This document shows, one piece after another, positions 12,869-41,303 of a stretch of DNA of 45,075 bases. A model generated the notes under the pieces. It did not search any database. It worked only from the letters and a program-made list of their open reading frames with translations, and was not told where the DNA came from. Made by a program: the position numbers and the translations under genes. The stretch's first letter is position 1; every line of letters begins with the position of its first letter. The stretch comes from Nitrospirota bacterium (lineage in GTDB: Bacteria > Nitrospirota > Thermodesulfovibrionia > Thermodesulfovibrionales > Dissulfurispiraceae): assembly GCA_004321915.1 (NCBI GenBank), contig SCQE01000085.1:1-45075 (forward strand), in the 5' to 3' direction.

Positions 12869-13939
12869 ATGCTAAAGAAAATAAAAGTAAGTGAAGCCAA
12901 AGTGGGCATGGTTGTTGCCGCTGATGTTTTTGAGGCCGCCATCGGTATGAATATGCCCTTCATCAGACACGGTGTTGTCCTTAACGATACCTATATCCAC
13001 AGCTTGAAGAACAGGGGAATTGTGTATATCCTGATAGAGCCGCCTGAGGGGTACAAAGGTGCGCCCGGCGAGGTATATGAAGTTGATAACCCGGACGATA
13101 TTAGAGAGGATATCCTATTTGACGGCAGGGTCCAGATTAAAGGGGATCTTGCCCCTAAGATCAAAATAGATGCAGGCGAGAGGATTATTGTCGAGGGTGA
13201 CGTTGGCGAGGGCTGTATTCTTACAAGTGCAACAGGAGGCATACTGATTAAAGGCTGTATACGCGGAAGCAAGGAAAGTCCGGTTACATTTATGGCTTCT
13301 CAGAATATTTTTGTACAGAACAAATCGGAGGATTCTGTAAGTTTTGCGGATATCAAGACAAGCTGCGATATAACTATTTCCGGAGATGTGTGCGACAGCT
13401 CAATCTCTGCAAGAGGTGAGGTGAAGATTGAAGGCAAAGCTGCTAACTCTCGCATATACAGCCAGTCTATTATAAAAATCAGGGATTGTGGTAATGAACT
13501 CGGGGACCCTTCCGTGCTCATGGTCAAACCTTTTGAGTGCAATGATCTTTCCCAAGAACTTCTCAAGATTGATTCCAGATCAGCCGTTATACTGAAAGAA
13601 AAAGAAAAACTGCAGAATGTTGTAGATCTTATAAAGAAACTGGGTAAAGACGTTGAGCAACTCCCGCAGGATAAAAAAATCGAACTGGCAACCGGAGTTA
13701 AATCATTCAAGGCTTTAGAAGTAGAGCTGTCTTCTTTTCAAGAACAAAAAGCAGACATTAAGAAAAAGGTAGAACAATATCTCGAAATAAAGAGAATTGC
13801 AGTTCAAGGAAATATTTTCCCGCGCTCAAAAATTACCATAGGAAACAGCAGTCTGGAAATAACAAAAAAAGAATCAGGGACCGCCTTTTTTGTGAAGGAA
13901 CGCAAAGTAGTATCTTCGCCGTATTCCGGAGGATTTTAA
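12869..13939 (+). CDS. FapA-like (DUF342) protein with HD-GYP-type N-terminal domain
   Basis: This protein has 356 residues. Residues 1-65 follow the pattern of the small N-terminal domain often found ahead of HD-GYP phosphodiesterases (KVSEAKVGMVVAADVFE, then HGVVLNDTYIHSLKNRGI). Residues about 85-215 are a run of short strands with repeated G-D-V and I-K-G turns, the polymer-forming beta-solenoid of FapA/DUF342. A coiled coil spans about 245-310, and a final strand segment (AVQGNIFPRSKITIGN) closes the fold. A paralogue at 34809-35864 has the same architecture. The function of the family is poorly defined: some members affect flagellar or envelope polarity. It stands 55 bases before a haem sensor protein on the same strand. 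Confidence 0.75.
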   Translation: MLKKIKVSEAKVGMVVAADVFEAAIGMNMPFIRHGVVLNDTYIHSLKNRGIVYILIEPPEGYKGAPGEVYEVDNPDDIREDILFDGRVQIKGDLAPKIKIDAGERIIVEGDVGEGCILTSATGGILIKGCIRGSKESPVTFMASQNIFVQNKSEDSVSFADIKTSCDITISGDVCDSSISARGEVKIEGKAANSRIYSQSIIKIRDCGNELGDPSVLMVKPFECNDLSQELLKIDSRSAVILKEKEKLQNVVDLIKKLGKDVEQLPQDKKIELATGVKSFKALEVELSSFQEQKADIKKKVEQYLEIKRIAVQGNIFPRSKITIGNSSLEITKKESGTAFFVKERKVVSSPYSGGF

Positions 13940-33455: not shown

Positions 33456-34849
33456 AGTCCAAAATTTTCATGGCCTTTATAATCGTGATTGCGGCCGCGA
33501 TGTTTTCGAACTTTGTTTTTGAGTGGTTCATAATGAGGGACTTTGAAAACTACGCGGAGAGCCTTAAGGAAGACCAGCTTTATTGGGTCATAACCGCGGT
33601 TGAGGGCAGCTATACGGACAGAGGCTGGAACAGGCAGGCCCTCTCCGAGGCGATACACTGGGCCATGATGTTCGGCCTCGATATCAGGGTCGTCGACGCT
33701 TATGGAAAAGAGGCCATTACGCATGAAGAGGTCATGTCTTCCATCTCTCCGGCCATGCACAAAAGGATGAGCGAGCATTTCGATATGCACAAGACAACAG
33801 GCGCTTTTGCCGGGCATAAGCTTATGCATATGGGACGTCCTGTGGGTGCCCTTTTTTACAGGGCCGCTCAAAAAGCGGTCATTAAAGAGAAAGAGCTGAC
33901 CTTTAAAAAAAGGACAAACTATTTTCTTCTCGTCTCGTTTCTGATAGCAGGGGCGGGCGCATTTTTCATGGCTTTCTATTTGAGCCAGTTCCTGACGGCC
34001 CCGGTCGTTGCACTCAAAAATGCCGCAGAGAGGATTACGCGAAGAGATTTCAATGTGAGGGTGGGGCTCAAATCGGATGACGAGCTCGGAAGTCTATCTC
34101 AGGCCTTCGATTTCATGGCCTTGTCTTTAAGGAAGGAGGAAGACCTTAGAAAACGGCTGATATCGAATGTCGCTCATGAGCTGAGGACCCCTCTTACGGT
34201 GATGAAAGCGAATGTCGAGGCCATGTCTGACGGAGTTCTGAAGGACACGTCCAAAGGGCTCGAAAATATAAGGACGGAGATGGACAGGCTTATAAAACTT
34301 GTGGGCGGCATCGAGGACATGACCAAGGCCGAGGCCGGTTTTTTTTCGCGCTTCAATGAGGAAGAGTTGGAACTCGGGCCTTTTCTGTCCGGTGTAACGG
34401 ACGAGATGCGGCCGCTGTTCGAAAATAAGGGACTGTATCTCAAATTCGAAGACGGCGAGGATATTTCAGTGTCCGTTGACTCCGAAAAACTGGTCTGGAT
34501 AATAAGAAACCTTATGTCCAACGCCCTTAAATTCACGGACAAGGGTGGAGCTGCGGTGCGTTACGGAAAGGCCGGCGATTTTTTTTATGTGGAGGTCCGG
34601 GACTCGGGCTGCGGCATACCTGAAAAAGATGCGGACCGCATATTCGACCGTTTCTACAGGGGCGCTTATCCGGTCAAGGAAGGCTTTGGTCTGGGACTGG
34701 CGATAGTGAAGGAACTTGTTGAGGCGATGGAAGGCAGGGTTGAAGTCCGGAGCAAAGCAGGGGAAGGGAGCAGCTTCAGCGTGATCCTTCCTGTTGGCGG
34801 GGCCAAGTTCAGCTCCCGTACGGCACAGAAATTATCTGGGAGTTCTTGA
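33452..34849 (+). CDS. Membrane sensor histidine kinase with His/Met-rich periplasmic loop
   Basis: This is a 465-residue kinase with transmembrane helices near 5-27 and 156-178. The periplasmic loop between them contains a dense His/Met stretch at 102-127 (Met102, His103, Met106, His109, Met112, His113, His122, Met125, His126, Met127), which looks like a soft-metal site. A HAMP domain follows, then the phospho-acceptor His in LISNVAHELRTPLTV, the N box LMSNALKF, the G1 box VRDSGCGIP and the G2 box GFGLGLAIV. It is translationally coupled to the response regulator. Copper or silver sensing is inferred only from residue composition. Its end overlaps the convergent FapA-like gene by 41 bases. 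Confidence 0.93.
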   Translation: MKSKIFMAFIIVIAAAMFSNFVFEWFIMRDFENYAESLKEDQLYWVITAVEGSYTDRGWNRQALSEAIHWAMMFGLDIRVVDAYGKEAITHEEVMSSISPAMHKRMSEHFDMHKTTGAFAGHKLMHMGRPVGALFYRAAQKAVIKEKELTFKKRTNYFLLVSFLIAGAGAFFMAFYLSQFLTAPVVALKNAAERITRRDFNVRVGLKSDDELGSLSQAFDFMALSLRKEEDLRKRLISNVAHELRTPLTVMKANVEAMSDGVLKDTSKGLENIRTEMDRLIKLVGGIEDMTKAEAGFFSRFNEEELELGPFLSGVTDEMRPLFENKGLYLKFEDGEDISVSVDSEKLVWIIRNLMSNALKFTDKGGAAVRYGKAGDFFYVEVRDSGCGIPEKDADRIFDRFYRGAYPVKEGFGLGLAIVKELVEAMEGRVEVRSKAGEGSSFSVILPVGGAKFSSRTAQKLSGSS

Positions 34850-35864
34850 TAAGGAACGAGAGAGACCGTTCCTTTTTTTCGATAGACATACATTTGTTTT
34901 CTATGCAGACCCTAGTGCCGGGGAAAATATCTCCGGTTATCGAAATTCTCTTTACCGCGAGGCTGAGGTCGATTTCTCTCTTCAGTTCTTCCTTGTCGCG
35001 TAGCAGATATTCGAGTTCTTCTTCGAGTTCCTTAAGCTTTCTCTGTCCTGCGAGGAGGTCCCTTTTTTTGTCGGCAGGCACATTGTAAATCGCAGGCCCT
35101 AACTTTTTTATGGTAGCAGCGATGTTCTGGAGTCCGTCTTTCGCCTTTTCGAATTTGGCAATTCTGACATCGAGCGCCTCCAGCTTTTTTATAAGGGCCA
35201 AGTGGTCTATGGGGTTCACCGTAACGGAGCAGCAACAATCGGTATTCTCTCCGGCCACGCAGTTGCGGATATTTATCCTCGATTCGCTTACGATATCGAC
35301 GGAAGTCACAGAGCCTTTAAGTGTGACATCTCCGGCTGAGGTTATCGAGGAATTCGAAACATCGAGGGCCGTTGTAACCTCGCCGCTTGCCTTGATCTCG
35401 GCAAAATATATCTTGTTTGCCGAAGTGCCCTGAATAGTAACGTCCCCCATGGTGTGGATCCTGACAGGGTTTTCCGCGGTGCCTAATATGGAGCCTTTAA
35501 TCGATATGTTGCCTGTAAGGTTTTCGAGCGAGCACCCCTCGACAACGTCGCACGAAACTACTATTGTCTCTCCTGCCTTGATCTTTATTCCGGGCTGCAC
35601 TCCTGAATGCACTTCGACCCTGCCTTCGAAATCTATGTCCTCTTTGAGCTGGTAAAGTTCGAAGACCTCTCCCGGCACACCCCTGTATCCTCTGGGCACC
35701 TGTATCAAAACATAGCTCAGGTCTTTGCTTCTGAGCCTGAAAATAGTCTCTTTGTCCAGCACAAACCCCTCGGTTACGAGAGGGAACATGCCTTTGCCCG
35801 GCTCGTAAATGTCGGTGCCTACAATCATGCCCGGCTTGAGGTCTTTTAGTAGGACTCTTTTCAT
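34809..35864 (-). CDS. FapA-like (DUF342) protein, paralogue of the one at 12869
   Basis: This protein has 351 residues and the same architecture as its paralogue: an N-terminal HD-GYP-type small domain (LKDLKPGMIVGTDIYEPGKGMFPLV), a beta-solenoid over about 80-215, a coiled coil over about 235-305 (KKLEALDVRIAKFEKAK and following), and the closing strands RISITGDIFPGTRVCIEN. Both end with a Pro-Tyr motif (SVPYGS here, SSPYSGGF there). Cysteines are frequent in the solenoid (NCVAGENTDCCCSV). It follows the PpiC-type lipoprotein gene by 10 bases. The end overlaps the convergent kinase gene by 41 bases. The function is not established. Confidence 0.75.
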   Translation of the reverse strand: MKRVLLKDLKPGMIVGTDIYEPGKGMFPLVTEGFVLDKETIFRLRSKDLSYVLIQVPRGYRGVPGEVFELYQLKEDIDFEGRVEVHSGVQPGIKIKAGETIVVSCDVVEGCSLENLTGNISIKGSILGTAENPVRIHTMGDVTIQGTSANKIYFAEIKASGEVTTALDVSNSSITSAGDVTLKGSVTSVDIVSESRINIRNCVAGENTDCCCSVTVNPIDHLALIKKLEALDVRIAKFEKAKDGLQNIAATIKKLGPAIYNVPADKKRDLLAGQRKLKELEEELEYLLRDKEELKREIDLSLAVKRISITGDIFPGTRVCIENKCMSIEKKERSLSFLIKNSQIISVPYGS

Positions 35865-35874
35865 TTAAGGGTTT

Positions 35875-36768
35875 CTACTTCGCCTTTTCCTCTTTTTGTT
35901 CTTTGCTTCCCGGCTTGCCCTGATTCCCGGATGTTATCTTCGCGATGGCTTCCTTGTTTATTTCGATTTTATAAGATTTTTTCAGACCGTCCCTGAATTT
36001 CTCGAAATGGTCCTGCTCTTTCTCGCGCGAAAGGCCCTGAATGATTATCTCTTTTACCTTTTCGAAATCTTCAGGCGTGCCTTTGACGTCGGTAAGCTTG
36101 AATATATGTATGCCGCCGTTTAGCTTGATCGGAGCGCCCACCTGTCCTTTTTTGAGTCTGAAGGCGACAGCTTCTATCTCTTTGCGGAGTTCGCCCTTTT
36201 TGACTATGCCTATGTCACCGCCCGACTTGGCCGAGGCCTTTTCTATAGACATCGAAGAGGCCACCTTCGCAAAATCCTCGCCTTTCTGTATCCGCTCGTA
36301 AACTTTTTGGGCGTCGCCCTCGCTCTTTACCACTATCTGGCTGAGCCTTACCTGGTTCCTTCTTATGAAGTCCTCTTTGTTCTTGTCGTAGTATTCCTTG
36401 GCTTCTTTCTCGGTGACTTTTGCGGCAGACTTCATCTCGTCGTCGAGAAGCTGTTTTATCAGCGTGTTCTTTTTAAGGGTCTCGATTTTCTTCTCGAACT
36501 CCTTTGTCTTATCGAGGCCGCGTTTTTTTGCTTCCCAGTAGAAAACCTCTTTCTGTACAATCTCGTCGACAAGCCTTGCGATCCCGTCGCTGCCCCCGAA
36601 GAACTCACCCGCAAGCTCGGGCGGCAGATAACTCATCTCGTTCTTAATATCTTCTTTCGTAAGTACCGTGTCGTTGATCTTTGCGATGTATTCGCCTTTC
36701 TGCTCCACCCCTTTAGAACAAGAAACCGCAAACACCAGAACGAGGATTGCCGTAAAAAACCTTATCAT
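35875..36768 (-). CDS. PpiC/SurA-type peptidyl-prolyl isomerase lipoprotein
   Basis: This is a 297-residue exported foldase. The signal peptide ends in the lipobox Ala-Val-Ser-Cys (Cys17). A SurA-like N-terminal helical domain (about 25-135) leads into a parvulin domain at about 140-245 (RLSQIVVKSEGDAQKVYERI, then SGGDIGIVKKGEL and GGIHIFKLTDV). A Lys/Glu-rich tail ends the protein. I chose the ATG at 36768 because AAAAGGAG lies ahead and the lipobox then falls at the right distance; an ATG 15 codons upstream is less likely. It probably assists folding of outer-membrane or secreted proteins in the periplasm. It is co-transcribed with the FapA-like gene. Confidence 0.92.
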   Translation of the reverse strand: MIRFFTAILVLVFAVSCSKGVEQKGEYIAKINDTVLTKEDIKNEMSYLPPELAGEFFGGSDGIARLVDEIVQKEVFYWEAKKRGLDKTKEFEKKIETLKKNTLIKQLLDDEMKSAAKVTEKEAKEYYDKNKEDFIRRNQVRLSQIVVKSEGDAQKVYERIQKGEDFAKVASSMSIEKASAKSGGDIGIVKKGELRKEIEAVAFRLKKGQVGAPIKLNGGIHIFKLTDVKGTPEDFEKVKEIIIQGLSREKEQDHFEKFRDGLKKSYKIEINKEAIAKITSGNQGKPGSKEQKEEKAK

Positions 36769-36829
36769 CAAATATTCTCCTTTTAAAATGGAATTGAGCT
36801 TATAAAATAACATATCGGCGTATTAAATT

Positions 36830-38050
36830 TCAGACTTGCATACTTGTATTTCTAAGTCGTTTTGCCATTTCCTTCAGAAAAGAAAGCACAAGTTTCGGGT
36901 CTTCATGCAGCAGGAACTCAAAGTTGTTTTTATTTATAGAGATTATCCGCGTATCGTCTTCGACCGCTATCGCGTCGGCGGTCCTAGGAACATCCAGCAG
37001 CATCGCCATCTCGCCGAAATATTCTCCTTTGTTTGCCGCCTTCAATACCTGACCGCCTTTGATCACCGCCACGGCGCCGGTCAGCACCTGAAACATGTTT
37101 TCGCCTCTGTCGCCTTCCTTGAAGATGAAGTCGTTCGTGTTGTAAGTCGTTACGAATTTGTCGAGAATGATTTTATGAAAGCTTTGGGGCAGTTTGCCGC
37201 CGAGCAGAAACTTCTTTATCAGCAGGGTGTCGCGTTTTCTGTTGGCGGCCATCACCTCAGCCGCAAAAAGCAGGACCGCGATTGTGTAATAGACCCAGAT
37301 TATCAATATGAATATGGCCTTAAGCGAGCCGAACGCGAAGCCGTAAGTAGGGTTATATTTCAGAAACAGGGAAAACAGAGGCCGTATTACAGACCAAAGC
37401 AGGGCTGTCAGGGCCGCGCCTGTAATTATATTCGAGGACCGCAGTTTGACCGGAACGAAGGCGAGAAAGAAAAAATAGACGAAGACGACCGTTATTATAA
37501 AAGGCGCGACCGCATTGCTTATCTTCAGGAAAAAAGGAAGCTCTTTCAAGAAAGTGCCTACCGACATATCGTAAATAATTTCGCTCAGTACAAGGAAAGT
37601 AAAAAGTACCAGTACGATCAGGACGGCGAGCCCGTCCCGAAGTGTCGCTTTATAGAACGAGATTTCCGAATCTGTCCTGAAGATCTTGGAAAATGAATTC
37701 CTGAGGGCGCTCGTTAGCGGCGTTATCGACCAGAACAGCGTTATTATGCTTACGGTGCCCCATATCTTTTTATACTTGGATAGAGAGTGCAGTTCTTTTA
37801 TTATGACCTTGCTGAACTCCGGAAATAAGTCGGCGGCAAGCTCGTCGATAAGCTTCAAGGCCGAGGCCGAAGATACTATGTAGTTGCTGAGTATGTAAAT
37901 TACGAGCAGCAGCAGAGGGATCAACGAGAAAAAACCGTAATACGCCAGAGCTGCCGAAGAGTCGAGGCTGTTGTTTCTCCGGAAGGATATTGCGGATTCT
38001 TTGAGGACGAGCAGCGTAAAGGTCAGTTTTTCCCTGAGCCTGTCGAGCAT
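36830..38050 (-). CDS. YihY/RNase BN-like membrane protein fused to a cyclic-nucleotide-binding domain
   Basis: This gene encodes 406 residues. Residues about 20-280 match the YihY family of six-helix inner-membrane proteins (SSAALAYYGFFSLIPLLLLV, later YNPTYGFAFGSLKAIFILIIWVYYT), once misnamed ribonuclease BN. Residues about 290-400 form a Crp-type cyclic-nucleotide-binding domain with the cassette YFGEMAMLLDVPRTADAI, whose Arg is kept. The fusion suggests ligand-gated control of the membrane part. The ATG lies inside the end of the TPR lipoprotein gene (28-base overlap), and no clear ribosome-binding site is visible. It is the last gene of the Mla-like operon. Confidence 0.9.
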   Translation of the reverse strand: MLDRLREKLTFTLLVLKESAISFRRNNSLDSSAALAYYGFFSLIPLLLLVIYILSNYIVSSASALKLIDELAADLFPEFSKVIIKELHSLSKYKKIWGTVSIITLFWSITPLTSALRNSFSKIFRTDSEISFYKATLRDGLAVLIVLVLFTFLVLSEIIYDMSVGTFLKELPFFLKISNAVAPFIITVVFVYFFFLAFVPVKLRSSNIITGAALTALLWSVIRPLFSLFLKYNPTYGFAFGSLKAIFILIIWVYYTIAVLLFAAEVMAANRKRDTLLIKKFLLGGKLPQSFHKIILDKFVTTYNTNDFIFKEGDRGENMFQVLTGAVAVIKGGQVLKAANKGEYFGEMAMLLDVPRTADAIAVEDDTRIISINKNNFEFLLHEDPKLVLSFLKEMAKRLRNTSMQV

Positions 38051-38901
38051 TGTTTTAAGAGTTGTTTTATTTCGTTGTTTCCTGCGCCGTCTCCGGAAGC
38101 TTCGCTCACGGCAAGCGCCCGCTCAAGAAACCCTAGTCCGGCGTCTCTGCGGCCCTGCGCGCAGTAACTATTCCCGATGCCGGAGAGGTCGGCCTTTATT
38201 TTTGCGCTGGAGCCTGCGGCTTTGTCCAAGGCCAATGCCTCTTCGAACAATTTGCGGGCCTCCGCGTATGCCCCTGCTGCAAGCCTGCTCTCCGCCAAGG
38301 TGCGCAGCGAGTTTGCCGTTTCTTCGGCATTGTTTTTCGACCGGTTCAGGACGAGGGCCTCCGAGGCATAAAATGCCGAAGCCTTATAATCTTTCTTCAT
38401 AAGCGCGATCCGTGCCTTCAGGTTTATTATTTTTCCGGAAGCTTCGCAGGCATTCTCTTTACAACGGGCCGATGCGCTGTCGGCCCATTCGCCCGCTTTT
38501 TCATGATCTTTAACGTCGAGGTAGACAAGGCTTTTCAAAAAGGCCGCCTCGACGCCGTACTGTTTGTCGTGAGGTTTCAGGCCTGCGTCGAGCAGTTCGT
38601 CCAGCGTTCTGTGTGCCTTGTCTGTTTCGGACATTTTACGGTAGGTTTGCGAGAGGTTGATAAGTTCGGCGGCTGCGCCGTCGGCATTATCGAGCGAACG
38701 GTTTATCCTCAACGCTTCGGTGTAAAGCGAAGCCGCCCTTGCGTAATTCCCTTTCTTGAATTCGGCCTGCGCTTTAATGTTCAGGTCCGTTGCCAAAGCC
38801 TGTTTCTCTGAGACATGCACGGGCGCAGACCCGCACCCGGCCTGAAACACGACAATATAGAATACGGCCATAATAAATATCGTTTTTGGTGTATTAATCA
38901 T
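38023..38901 (-). CDS. TPR-repeat lipoprotein
   Basis: This is a 292-residue lipoprotein with a signal peptide ending in Gln-Ala-Gly-Cys (about residue 23). At least five to six TPR units follow, for example KGNYARAASLYTEALRINRS and AGAYAEARKLFEEALALDKA. TPR lipoproteins usually act as assembly or docking factors at the inner face of the outer membrane. It sits directly after mlaD (8-base overlap) and overlaps the YihY-fusion gene by 28 bases. In this operon it takes the place where other Mla/MCE systems carry an auxiliary lipoprotein, so a link to lipid transport is plausible. Confidence 0.88.
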   Translation of the reverse strand: MINTPKTIFIMAVFYIVVFQAGCGSAPVHVSEKQALATDLNIKAQAEFKKGNYARAASLYTEALRINRSLDNADGAAAELINLSQTYRKMSETDKAHRTLDELLDAGLKPHDKQYGVEAAFLKSLVYLDVKDHEKAGEWADSASARCKENACEASGKIINLKARIALMKKDYKASAFYASEALVLNRSKNNAEETANSLRTLAESRLAAGAYAEARKLFEEALALDKAAGSSAKIKADLSGIGNSYCAQGRRDAGLGFLERALAVSEASGDGAGNNEIKQLLKQCSTGSGKN

Positions 38902-39850
38902 AGCTATCTATCGGAAGGAGCTTCCCTTCAGGATTTTTTATGTACGAGCGTATCGGCCATATTTTTTTTACCGACCCGGTTATCTCCGTAGTGTCATCCG
39001 CTATGTCATTGCCCTTGTCTATAAGCGAAGGTATCGAGGGCGCGGATTTTTCTACCGCTTTTTTCAGCTCTTCCGTGGTTTTCTGGATATTGTCGAGACT
39101 CTTGCCCACCTTTTCCGTTATGCCGGGCATGTCTTTGTCCACTTTTTTTATTATGCCGTTTACGTCTTCAACTGTCTTATGCGTGGAGTCCAGAACAGCG
39201 CCGATCTTCTTGGAAGTATCGTTTATATTTTTGTCGGAACTCTGGAGAAGGGCGTTCAACCTCTTGCCTGTTGACGAGAGATCGTCCGAGAGGTGCTTCA
39301 CATTTCTCAGGGTCGCCTTTATGTCTCCTGACGGATCATTCACATACTGGACGATGTTCTTAAGCTCGAGTATGACCGGTTTGATTTCGTTTTTCAGCTC
39401 CTCTATCATCTCGCTGATGCCCCGCTCGCGGCCGAAAGGCATTATGCTGTTTTCCTGCATGGGCTTGGCAGCCGCGGACCCCGGCTGGATATCTATGATG
39501 CTGTCGCCTATCATCCCCTCTTTCGAGAGTTTTGCGTGAGAGTCGGTCTTTATCCATTTCATATATTTTTTGCTTATGGACAGAGTTACTTTCACCTTTG
39601 CCACGTCGTCGAGTTCCATATTCCTGATCTTGCCGATCTTAAAGCCGCTGAGTTTTACGGCCATGCCTTCGTTTATGCCCTGCCCGCTTTCGGCGATGAA
39701 AAAGATCGTGGTTTTGGGCGTAAAAGTGTCGTGCTGTATGCCGATGAAGGTTATAACGGCTACTGTGCCTATGGCCGCTATAATGAAGAACAGTCCTATC
39801 TTTCTTTCGATATTCACAAACCGTTTGTCCCCGTCTCTGAGGATACTCAT
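38894..39850 (-). CDS. mlaD: MlaD/MCE-family lipid transport protein
   Basis: This gene encodes 318 residues. A single membrane anchor lies at about 17-38. The MCE domain follows at about 44-130 (TIFFIAESGQGINEGMAVKLSGFKIGKI, then LSKEGMIGDSIIDIQPGS). The rest is a long helical or coiled-coil tail with repeated Lys/Asp/Ile patterns, longer than in E. coli MlaD and more like other bacterial MCE proteins. MCE proteins form hexameric rings that carry phospholipids between membranes. It overlaps the ATPase-like gene by 4 bases and the TPR lipoprotein gene by 8. Confidence 0.93.
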   Translation of the reverse strand: MSILRDGDKRFVNIERKIGLFFIIAAIGTVAVITFIGIQHDTFTPKTTIFFIAESGQGINEGMAVKLSGFKIGKIRNMELDDVAKVKVTLSISKKYMKWIKTDSHAKLSKEGMIGDSIIDIQPGSAAAKPMQENSIMPFGRERGISEMIEELKNEIKPVILELKNIVQYVNDPSGDIKATLRNVKHLSDDLSSTGKRLNALLQSSDKNINDTSKKIGAVLDSTHKTVEDVNGIIKKVDKDMPGITEKVGKSLDNIQKTTEELKKAVEKSAPSIPSLIDKGNDIADDTTEITGSVKKIWPIRSYIKNPEGKLLPIDSYD

Positions 39851-40524
39851 CGCATCTCCTTCAGTTCCGTACCCGCCTGCCTGAGGATTATATCGGCGGG
39901 CGCTTTGCGCAACGAATATTCGTCCGAGGTCAGGTAGAGAGAAACCCTCCCGGCCTTTTCTTTATGGAACTGCGTAGTCATAGTTGTCAGTTCATCCTGC
40001 ATTTCCGGGTTGAGCCCCTCAAATATCGAATCGTAAATAATAACTTCCGGCTCGGCAATAAAGGCCTTTACGACTCCGACAACTCTTTTTTCGTGCGGAC
40101 TCAGATGCCCCGGAAGCTGCTGCATAAGTTTTTCTATGCGTTCGATGTCCGTGTTTATGCCGAGCAGCCGCCTGACGATCCTGATGATCCTGTCCTCAAG
40201 GTCTTGCGGGTTGATGCCCTGATGATACTCTATCGGCAGGGTTATATTCTCCCACACCCTCAGGTTGCTGATAAGCCCGCCGTTGCCGGGCACCACGGCG
40301 GCTTTCTCGAAAAGTTTAATATATTCGTCTTCCGAAATGGAATATATCTCTTTGCCGAAGAGCAGCACCTCTCCCGCATCAGGTTTCTGTAGTCCGGTGA
40401 CCAGTCTTAGCAGCAGGTTTTTTTCATCGTCCGAATCTACGATTATTTTGACCGATCTGCCTGTCCCCGATTCGAACGATATGTCACTGAATCCGTTCGC
40501 GCTGACGTTTCTCAGGGTCATCAT
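39847..40524 (-). CDS. Degenerate ABC ATPase in the MlaF position
   Basis: This 225-residue protein has an ABC ATPase fold of normal length but lacks the working motifs. The Walker A region reads VDSDDEKNL (29-37): Lys35 is kept but all glycines and the Ser/Thr pair are lost. The Q-loop glutamine is replaced (VVPGNGG). The signature LSGGQ is LSPHE (141-145). Walker B keeps Asp165, but the catalytic Glu is Ser166 (IIYDSIFEGLNP). The switch His is Ser200 (LTSDEYS). Scaffold strands such as LLRLVTGLQKPDAGEVLLFGK and VWENITLP are well preserved, so the gene is under selection. It overlaps mlaE and mlaD by 4 bases each. It probably binds MlaE without hydrolysing ATP, or partners another ATPase. 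Confidence 0.85.
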   Translation of the reverse strand: MMTLRNVSANGFSDISFESGTGRSVKIIVDSDDEKNLLLRLVTGLQKPDAGEVLLFGKEIYSISEDEYIKLFEKAAVVPGNGGLISNLRVWENITLPIEYHQGINPQDLEDRIIRIVRRLLGINTDIERIEKLMQQLPGHLSPHEKRVVGVVKAFIAEPEVIIYDSIFEGLNPEMQDELTTMTTQFHKEKAGRVSLYLTSDEYSLRKAPADIILRQAGTELKEMR

Positions 40525-41303
40525 AGAAGCGAAGCGCCTACCGTGATGATTCCGTCCGCTATGAATACGATGAACAGGCTTTGCATAACGGCGCGCGCAG
40601 CCGCCTGAGGTATTTCGGTCAGAGAATTCCCGACATTAAGACCCTGATAGCAGGATACCGCGGATATCAGGAGCCCGAAGACAAAGCTCTTGAAGAGCGA
40701 GACCGCCACCTCATAAATGCTCAATGCCGCGAATATGGCCTCTATGTGCTGAAGCATCGGGAAGTCGAGGATAAGGGAGGAAAGGGCTATGCCTCCGGCT
40801 ATAGCGATGAACTGAAAATAGAAAGAGAGCACGAATATAGAGAGCGATATGCCGGCCACCCTCGGCACGATAAGATAGTCGTAGGGATCGATGCCCATCA
40901 GCTTCAGGTTGTCCACCTCGCCGTTTATCTTCATGGATGCGAGTTCCGACGATATCGCCGTGCCGCTTCTGGTTATAACTATGATCGCCGAAAAAAGAGG
41001 GCCGAGTTCCTTAACGATTATCCAGAGCAGAATCTTGCCTGTAAGCAGGGCGTTCACGCCCACGATGCTAGTTATCTGCATGATGATGACGATCCCTATA
41101 AGCGCGCCCATTACGGACACCTTTCCGAGCGCCTCCATGCCGGTGAAAAAAATCTGCCTGAACAACACCCTTTTTACCGGCCCGATCGACAGCGCTTTGA
41201 GTCTTCCTGCAAAGGCCGCGATTATCTCGAAATAGCCGCGAAGATAGGCTATTTCATTCATCGTCTTCAGGCCGATTTTTTGCGCGAGATCAATGCCGTT
41301 CAT
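40521..41303 (-). CDS. mlaE: MlaE-family ABC permease
   Basis: This is a 260-residue inner-membrane permease of the MlaE family with about five to six helices. Family landmarks are VLFRQIFFTGMEALG, KELGPLFSAIIVITRSGTAISSELASMKINGEVDNLKLMGIDP and the conserved ending of the second half (CYQGLNVGNSLTEIPQAAARAVMQSL). It forms the membrane channel part of the lipid transporter with MlaD. The stretch IVITRSGTAISSELASM normally contacts the ATPase and is intact. It is the first gene of the operon. The ATG is only 6 bases past an extended -10, with no ribosome-binding site. Confidence 0.95.
   Translation of the reverse strand: MNGIDLAQKIGLKTMNEIAYLRGYFEIIAAFAGRLKALSIGPVKRVLFRQIFFTGMEALGKVSVMGALIGIVIIMQITSIVGVNALLTGKILLWIIVKELGPLFSAIIVITRSGTAISSELASMKINGEVDNLKLMGIDPYDYLIVPRVAGISLSIFVLSFYFQFIAIAGGIALSSLILDFPMLQHIEAIFAALSIYEVAVSLFKSFVFGLLISAVSCYQGLNVGNSLTEIPQAAARAVMQSLFIVFIADGIITVGASLL

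Follow-up and report, generated by a model that had tools for sequence, protein, structure and literature searches.

Retention of a dead MlaF motor across a family branch in several phyla suggests lipid movement without ATP

A dead MlaF motor was found to be kept across a whole branch of its family in several phyla, which suggests that lipids move there without ATP. The reading that we favour, at a probability of about 0.5, is that this pseudo-ATPase acts as a clamp which holds its permease open to feed an MCE channel, the lipid bridge not being driven by ATP hydrolysis of its own. No description of the dead-MlaF clade was found in the literature searched, which is weak evidence of absence, as bioRxiv and most subscription journals lay outside its coverage.

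Organization of the operon

The window (the whole stretch of 45,075 nucleotides that was analysed) contains the following features. The ATPase-like protein is designated F', and its permease and MCE partners MlaE' and MlaD'.

40521..41303, minus strand: mlaE' permease (P0002, 260 aa); PF02405, 179.5 bits against a cut-off of 22.5; falls in the MlaE clade of dead ATPases
40860..40949, minus strand: coupling region of MlaE' (residues 119-148), aligned with the E. coli MlaE coupling-helix residues given in the available text of PMC7784689
39847..40524, minus strand: mlaF', predicted pseudo-ATPase (P0001, F', 225 aa); open reading frame, Pfam, alignment and AlphaFold model
40417..40440, minus strand: lost Walker A, VDSDDEKN, P0001 residues 29-36; alignment
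40222..40275, minus strand: conserved F' motif LISNLRVWENITLPIEYH, P0001 residues 84-101, at the coupling-helix groove; conservation windows
40090..40104, minus strand: lost ABC signature, LSPHE, P0001 residues 141-145; alignment
40027..40044, minus strand: Walker B VIIYDS, Asp kept and catalytic Glu replaced by Ser; alignment
39922..39924, minus strand: position of the switch His, occupied by Asp201; alignment
38894..39850, minus strand: mlaD' MCE protein (P0003, 318 aa; single MCE domain followed by long helices); PF02470, 51.9 bits against a cut-off of 25.1
38023..38901, minus strand: TPR lipoprotein, fourth conserved gene; lipobox FQAGC read by eye; TPR families
36830..38050, minus strand: BrkB-family membrane protein with a C-terminal cyclic-nucleotide-binding domain; PF03631 and PF00027

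Four nucleotides (40521-40524) are shared by the start of mlaF' and the stop of mlaE', and another four (39847-39850) by the stop of mlaF' and the start of mlaD'. Both junctions had been noticed in an earlier reading made from the letters of the DNA (the sequence-only reading) and were confirmed. To the mlaE and mlaD genes named there, a fourth conserved gene encoding the TPR lipoprotein was added, the conserved unit being MlaE'-F'-MlaD'-TPR lipoprotein (MlaE'F'D'T). The BrkB gene overlaps the TPR gene by 28 nt and in some relatives probably belongs to the operon. A scan of six proteins at 35875-41303 gave no member of the STAS (MlaB) family. The source operon contains a single F, with no second ATPase and no second intact NBD encoded alongside it, which speaks against the heteromeric complex that the sequence-only reading had offered as one of three mechanisms. 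The AF2 model of MlaD' was only partly confident (mean pLDDT 62.7) and poor past the MCE domain; beyond residue about 200 its low confidence gives no base for a periplasm-long tube.

Loss of catalytic motifs and preservation of the fold

The protein encoded at 39847-40524 had been described as an ABC scaffold that has lost its catalytic motifs, and this was confirmed by alignment and by the AlphaFold fold match. Compared with canonical MlaF, the P-loop GxxxxGK[ST] of P0001 reads VDSDDEKN, both glycines and the Ser/Thr being gone, the Q-loop Gln is replaced by G80, the signature LSGGQ reads LSPHE, the catalytic Glu is replaced by S166 and the switch His by D201. Walker B Asp165 is retained. All the losses named earlier stood, with the addition that the Walker A Lys (Lys35) survives in P0001.

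P0001 passed the Pfam ABC_tran cut-off (35.4 against 25 bits) and fell far below that of the NCBIfam MlaF equivalog NF008809 (50.9 against 441 bits). Its AlphaFold model, which used 61 family members, had a mean pLDDT of 93.9 and a pTM of 0.90. The best solved match of this AF2 model was E. coli MlaF (6xbd_I; Z 27.1, rmsd 1.9, 215 residues, 22% identity), as for an MlaF subunit of the ABC-ATPase fold; the residues of an ATP-hydrolyzing MlaF (P-loop glycines, Q, SGG, Glu and His) are missing. From the lost motifs and the structural match, the fold therefore appears to be whole and the chemistry gone, and P0001 is best described, on alignment and model, as a pseudo-ATPase, an MlaF-like subunit without nucleotide chemistry. 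Shifted motifs were ruled out, as the model superposes on E. coli MlaF across the 215 residues and the alignments agree. Annotation of F' genes as MlaF or as ABC ATP-binding proteins is misleading.

Constraint on the F' gene

Alignment with homologues showed the losses to be common to 18 degenerate rows. F' from the other species of the genus (L006/L035) is 75% identical to that of the source and has the same motif losses, as have the remaining members of these rows. The dN/dS was determined by NG86 for the source locus against L035. It was 0.145/0.948, or about 0.15, for F', 0.045/0.907 for MlaE', 0.064/1.055 for MlaD' and 0.207/1.491 for the TPR gene, while two canonical MlaF pairs gave 0.059/0.885 and 0.041/0.790. 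F' is therefore constrained, although 2-3 times less than working, canonical MlaF (0.15 against 0.067 and 0.052), and these values indicate that its gene is under purifying selection.

The loose loss of motifs and the draft state of the genome might suggest that F' is a decaying remnant or an assembly error. This is hardly credible and was rejected on the dN/dS, the overlapping operon junctions and similar losses in independent genomes, including those of Geotalea sp. SG265 and Trichlorobacter thiogenes ATCC BAA-34. The dN/dS and the operon overlaps, together with the clade-wide conservation, support the earlier claim of a pseudo-ATPase that would still be expressed as a part of its system.

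Distribution and conservation of the operon

Degenerate F' was present among the top-scoring loci in 18 of the first 60 genomes, which comprised the source genome and relatives; G037 was later added as the nineteenth. When the named-genome collection (84,980 species) was scanned with one family pattern, ISNL..EN, 166 stretches and 105 relatives were obtained, and 80 loci (L035-L114) were retained. They came from Nitrospirota, Geobacteraceae (including Geotalea sp. SG265 and Trichlorobacter thiogenes), other 'deltaproteobacteria', Gallionellaceae, Muproteobacteria, Acidiferrobacterales and Verrucomicrobiota. Conservation of ISNL in these loci is partly by construction, because they were selected via that pattern; the earlier set A1 and the later set L211-L261 were not. 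The degenerate clade spans Nitrospirota, Thermodesulfobacteriota and other 'deltaproteobacteria', Pseudomonadota and Verrucomicrobiota.

The F' family was found in 33 of the 295 genomes from the phylum of the source genome, at E at or below 3.4e-46, a gap read from the list that divides the family from ordinary MlaF. With MlaE' as bait, 30 of the 88 genomes in one Nitrospirota family and 21 of the 148 in the phylum of G310 gave matches. When the threshold was relaxed so far that canonical MlaE could pass as well, matches came from 43 of 349 genomes in the phylum that includes a Sideroxydans genome and from 43 of 194 in that of a Prosthecobacter genome. F was seen in 18 of the 20 loci fetched from the Prosthecobacter phylum, with a P-loop or signature in none. 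Many MlaE' systems were noted in this phylum (L302-L320), with a fully degenerate F and a docking motif that mostly reads [IVLM][SA]NLDxDEN. Very diverged MlaE' with unrecognisable F motifs were seen in the phylum of G308 (L279, L286, L293, L297, L298 and L300), in genomes of about 1.2-2.6 Mb.

MlaD' adjoined F' in all 80 loci of the pattern scan, the TPR gene was present in 76, and MlaE' lay within 6 kb in 73. The four TPR-gene losses and three of the seven MlaE' losses were at contig ends, as judged from locus lengths. In Trichlorobacter and some Geobacter (L072, L073, L076 and L104) F'-MlaD'-TPR occurs with no adjoining MlaE', and MlaE' was located elsewhere in both genomes of this group that were searched (L207 and L206). 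A strict rule recognised a lipobox in 51 of the 76 TPR proteins; of the remaining 25, all except L055, L062 and L068 show one on inspection by eye.

A CHASE2 protein was encoded near the operon in 22 of the 80 loci, and the single representative that was scanned is a fusion with an adenylate/guanylate cyclase domain; the usual gene order in Gallionellaceae is F'-D'-T-CHASE2-E'. BrkB with a cNMP-binding domain was present within 6 kb in 6 of the 80 loci, and the deltaproteobacterial group has response regulator-kinase genes (c9). Such neighbours would suit a signalling or gating subunit F', with MlaE'F'D' sensing the state of lipids or of the envelope and reporting to cyclic-nucleotide signalling instead of moving lipid in bulk. 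The neighbours vary by lineage, however, E-F-D-T alone being constant, and the MCE protein and permease are retained as in transporters, so that we consider this role quite unlikely. As an observation in its own right, the BrkB/cNMP gene at 36830-38050 and the CHASE2-cyclase neighbours elsewhere hint at a cyclic-nucleotide link.

Graded loss of the motor

Six features were scored in 198 non-redundant F proteins, 48 of 246 having been removed as duplicates of the core. Fifty-five F were intact and 143 degenerate. All intact F were positive in every scored feature, and 54 of the 55 stood beside canonical MlaE; the other, L029, had no adjoining MlaE. Among the 143 degenerate F, the SGG signature was found in none, the His in 4, the Glu in 12, the Q-loop Gln in 41 and the Walker B Asp in 104. 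Walker A was full in 41, partial in 15 and absent in 87, L220 being scored as having no P-loop merely for changes of Lys to Arg and Ser to Gly. A less biased check was provided by the 51 loci L211-L261, which were fetched by MlaE' similarity alone, whereas L035-L114 were selected through F'; F was present in 48 of them and an intact signature in none.

F from family f29, which we take to be the Nitrospiraceae, typically keeps the P-loop and Gln, reads DDP and lacks the His. In L247-L249, L252 and L256, from the phylum of G310, the P-loop, Gln and Glu are kept, the signature is altered and the His is absent. F' of the source lineage mostly retains the Walker B Asp alone. As some early branches retain the P-loop, the motor appears to have eroded stepwise. 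The clade therefore represents a graded series of natural variants, from a near-intact P-loop (Nitrospiraceae and the L247 type) to none, in which roles of the ATPase other than hydrolysis can be tested.

Because the P-loop, the Gln and even the Glu are kept, nucleotide binding may still matter in L247-L249, L252, L256 and L168. Another reading is that F' still powers or gates transport through a novel mode of binding to a nucleotide or some other ligand, as the Lys35 kept in P0001 and the apparently usable P-loop of early branches might suggest. This is improbable, given that the crown group conserves the P-loop window less than any other tested and that the Lys is retained in only a third of non-redundant F' without a P-loop.

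Phylogeny of the permease

The MlaE rows were thinned from 193 to 73, and in the resulting tree all sampled partners of degenerate F fell in one clade of 58 (support 100/100). Within this clade the P-loop was lost at least three times, one of these losses being that of L220. For a wider tree, the names on a hand list of 12, of which 11 were present, were dropped from the 73 rows; 24 of 50 new loci and E. coli MlaE minus its first 20 residues were added, the states of these new rows being entered by hand. In this tree of 87 rows the partners of degenerate F formed one clade of 68 (support 100/99) on a long stem. The dead clade has as its sister a group in which F is fully intact (L274, L281 and L290; support 98/87). 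By this placement the ancestor was likely ATP-competent, the motor having eroded within the dead clade or on its stem.

The next branch outward consists of MlaE without an adjacent ATPase (L003, the C98 copy of the source genome, and L130). A STAS-like gene was noted upstream of MlaE in L145 (6438-7247, G000:C98), L130 and L137, with no ATPase match in the fetched stretch; L145 has an upstream anti-sigma-like gene as well. Both kinds of gene were named by eye.

Docking region

In F' without a P-loop, the P-loop window was the least conserved of those tested (0.69 times the mean), and residues 84-101 (the ISNL..YH window) were the most conserved (1.70 times the mean). The motif LISNLRVWENITLPIEYH at these residues contains the equivalents of E. 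coli MlaF L96, Y108 and E112. Relative to the rest of the protein, the coupling region is as conserved in MlaE' (1.16 times) as in MlaE with live ATPases, and E120, L121, M124, E129, G137, I138, Y143, L144, P147 and R148 are invariant columns among 47 MlaE'. Conservation of both regions is as a docked, non-catalytic subunit predicts.

The E. coli MlaE-MlaF contacts given in the available text of PMC7784689 include the pairs R142-E112, S131-R157, Q128-L96, E127-R52 and M135-Y108. In 48 non-redundant F' without a P-loop the equivalents of L96 and R157 are mostly Leu and Arg, that of Y108 is Leu in all 48, and that of E112 is Tyr in 90%. On the MlaE' side the equivalent of Q128 is Glu. In a first sample this Glu was present in 58 of 58 MlaE' and Gln in 21 of 21 canonical rows. 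In a wider sample 22 intact systems had 19 Gln and 3 Glu (L274, L281 and L290), and 25 degenerate systems had 23 Glu and 2 Gln (L319 and L320), the F states of the most diverged rows depending on the alignment. A paired interface switch, considered as proof that only F' binds to MlaE', was weakened by this wider sample and by the position of the three intact systems with Glu as sister of the dead clade. The MlaE Glu is not tied to dead motors, and so only the docking motif on the F side is clade-specific.

MlaE' might nevertheless be driven in trans by a canonical MlaF encoded at a different locus, which would act either alone or as a heterodimer with a regulatory F'. The source genome does contain two intact MlaF genes at other mlaE loci (C125 and C108), as would be needed for another mechanism of the sequence-only reading, an ATPase encoded elsewhere. 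ABC exporters with one degenerate site are also well known from the accessible descriptions. A further MlaE locus was found in 83 of the 84 genomes with the system (the source genome plus 17, 12 and 54 from successive sets), so that a live MlaF would usually be to hand and an ATPase acting in trans stays among the explanations. The exception, G480, is of uncertain completeness and gave one MlaE match only; in G398 the second match comprises 49 residues in a 147-base stretch at a contig start. This co-occurrence says little, because these phyla would in any case be expected to have canonical Mla loci. We judge driving in trans to be unlikely, since no intact ATPase gene was found in the operons and the F' docking motif is under strong constraint and differs from canonical MlaF at the Y108 and E112 equivalents. 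The earlier interpretation was thus partly supported. Its third mechanism, transport that is not ATP-driven, appears to fit best, because the clade tolerates all degrees of motif loss, including absence of the P-loop, while keeping the docking region.

Comparison with known systems

By fold, operon and permease, MlaE'F'D'T belongs with the Mla-type MCE ABC transporters, although F' lacks the residues for ATP hydrolysis, and in this respect the system falls outside their definition. It shares with E. coli MlaFEDB the MlaE permease, the MCE protein MlaD, the MlaF fold and an overlapping operon. It differs in its dead ATPase, in having no STAS (MlaB) gene within the six-protein scan, in its longer MlaD and TPR lipoprotein, and in an F' without the C-terminal handshake extension (225 against 269 aa). 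The source genome (G000) gave no match to MlaA (PF04333); it has four MlaE loci and a single MlaC (C68:176120-176605), away from the operon. In the bridge-type systems Mla of Veillonella parvula and Mpc of Brucella abortus, a long MlaD is thought, in the accessible descriptions, to span the periplasm without a shuttle, but MlaF/MpcF is described there as conserved.

LetAB and PqiABC are MCE lipid bridges without an ATPase of their own, and PqiC is an outer-membrane lipoprotein, according to the available texts. For PqiA and LetA, PMC10897342 and PMC12436622 are, in their accessible parts, in accord on the missing ATPase, and the power for PqiA (passive, another ATPase or proton motive force) is said to be open. 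These systems differ from the present one in that their membrane protein is LetA/PqiA instead of MlaE, no MlaF remnant is described for them, and PqiC has an ABC auxiliary lipoprotein domain in place of TPR. MlaE'F'D'T may work like LetAB or PqiABC though it stands outside those families. ABC exporters with one degenerate site resemble F' in the loss of the catalytic Glu, and their signature is often altered. One of their sites stays active in the descriptions available, whereas an F' pair would have no live site.

Proposed mechanism

Both the ATP need and the lipid direction of Mla-type transporters are disputed, and the powering of forward phospholipid transport to the outer membrane is open; an ATP-free MlaE would be a direct lead on the latter. 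MlaE', F', MlaD' and the TPR lipoprotein would form an Mla-type MCE lipid-transfer complex, with F' still docked on the coupling helices of MlaE'. An F' dimer would probably serve as a fixed clamp, with MlaE' held nucleotide-free and open and its cavity toward the MCE channel. Lipids would cross between the membranes down their own gradient or by energy from elsewhere, not from F', and the outer-membrane end of the path would lie at the TPR lipoprotein.

E. coli MlaF with K47A or E170Q did not complement, as given in the available part of PMC7367683, so a complex like MlaE'F'D' would be dead as an ATP-driven Mla. Nucleotide-free E. coli MlaE is described in the accessible text of PMC10212509 as V-shaped and open toward MlaD, and ATP-independent lipid transfer from MlaD to MlaC is reported there, which ATP hydrolysis is said to prevent. 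From these reports, together with the ATPase-less PqiA and LetA, we favour a permanently open, clamp-stabilised permease. More tentatively, and with some doubt, MlaE'F'D'T might be a dedicated ATP-free lipid bridge directed from the inner to the outer membrane, the passive forward partner of an ATP-driven, retrieving Mla in the same cell. If this were true, loss of the motor would be loss of the brake that ATP hydrolysis sets on forward transfer in E. coli Mla, as far as that brake is described in PMC10212509.

Elsewhere in the window, two similar proteins are encoded at 12869-13939 and 34809-35864, which we take by eye to be FapA-like.
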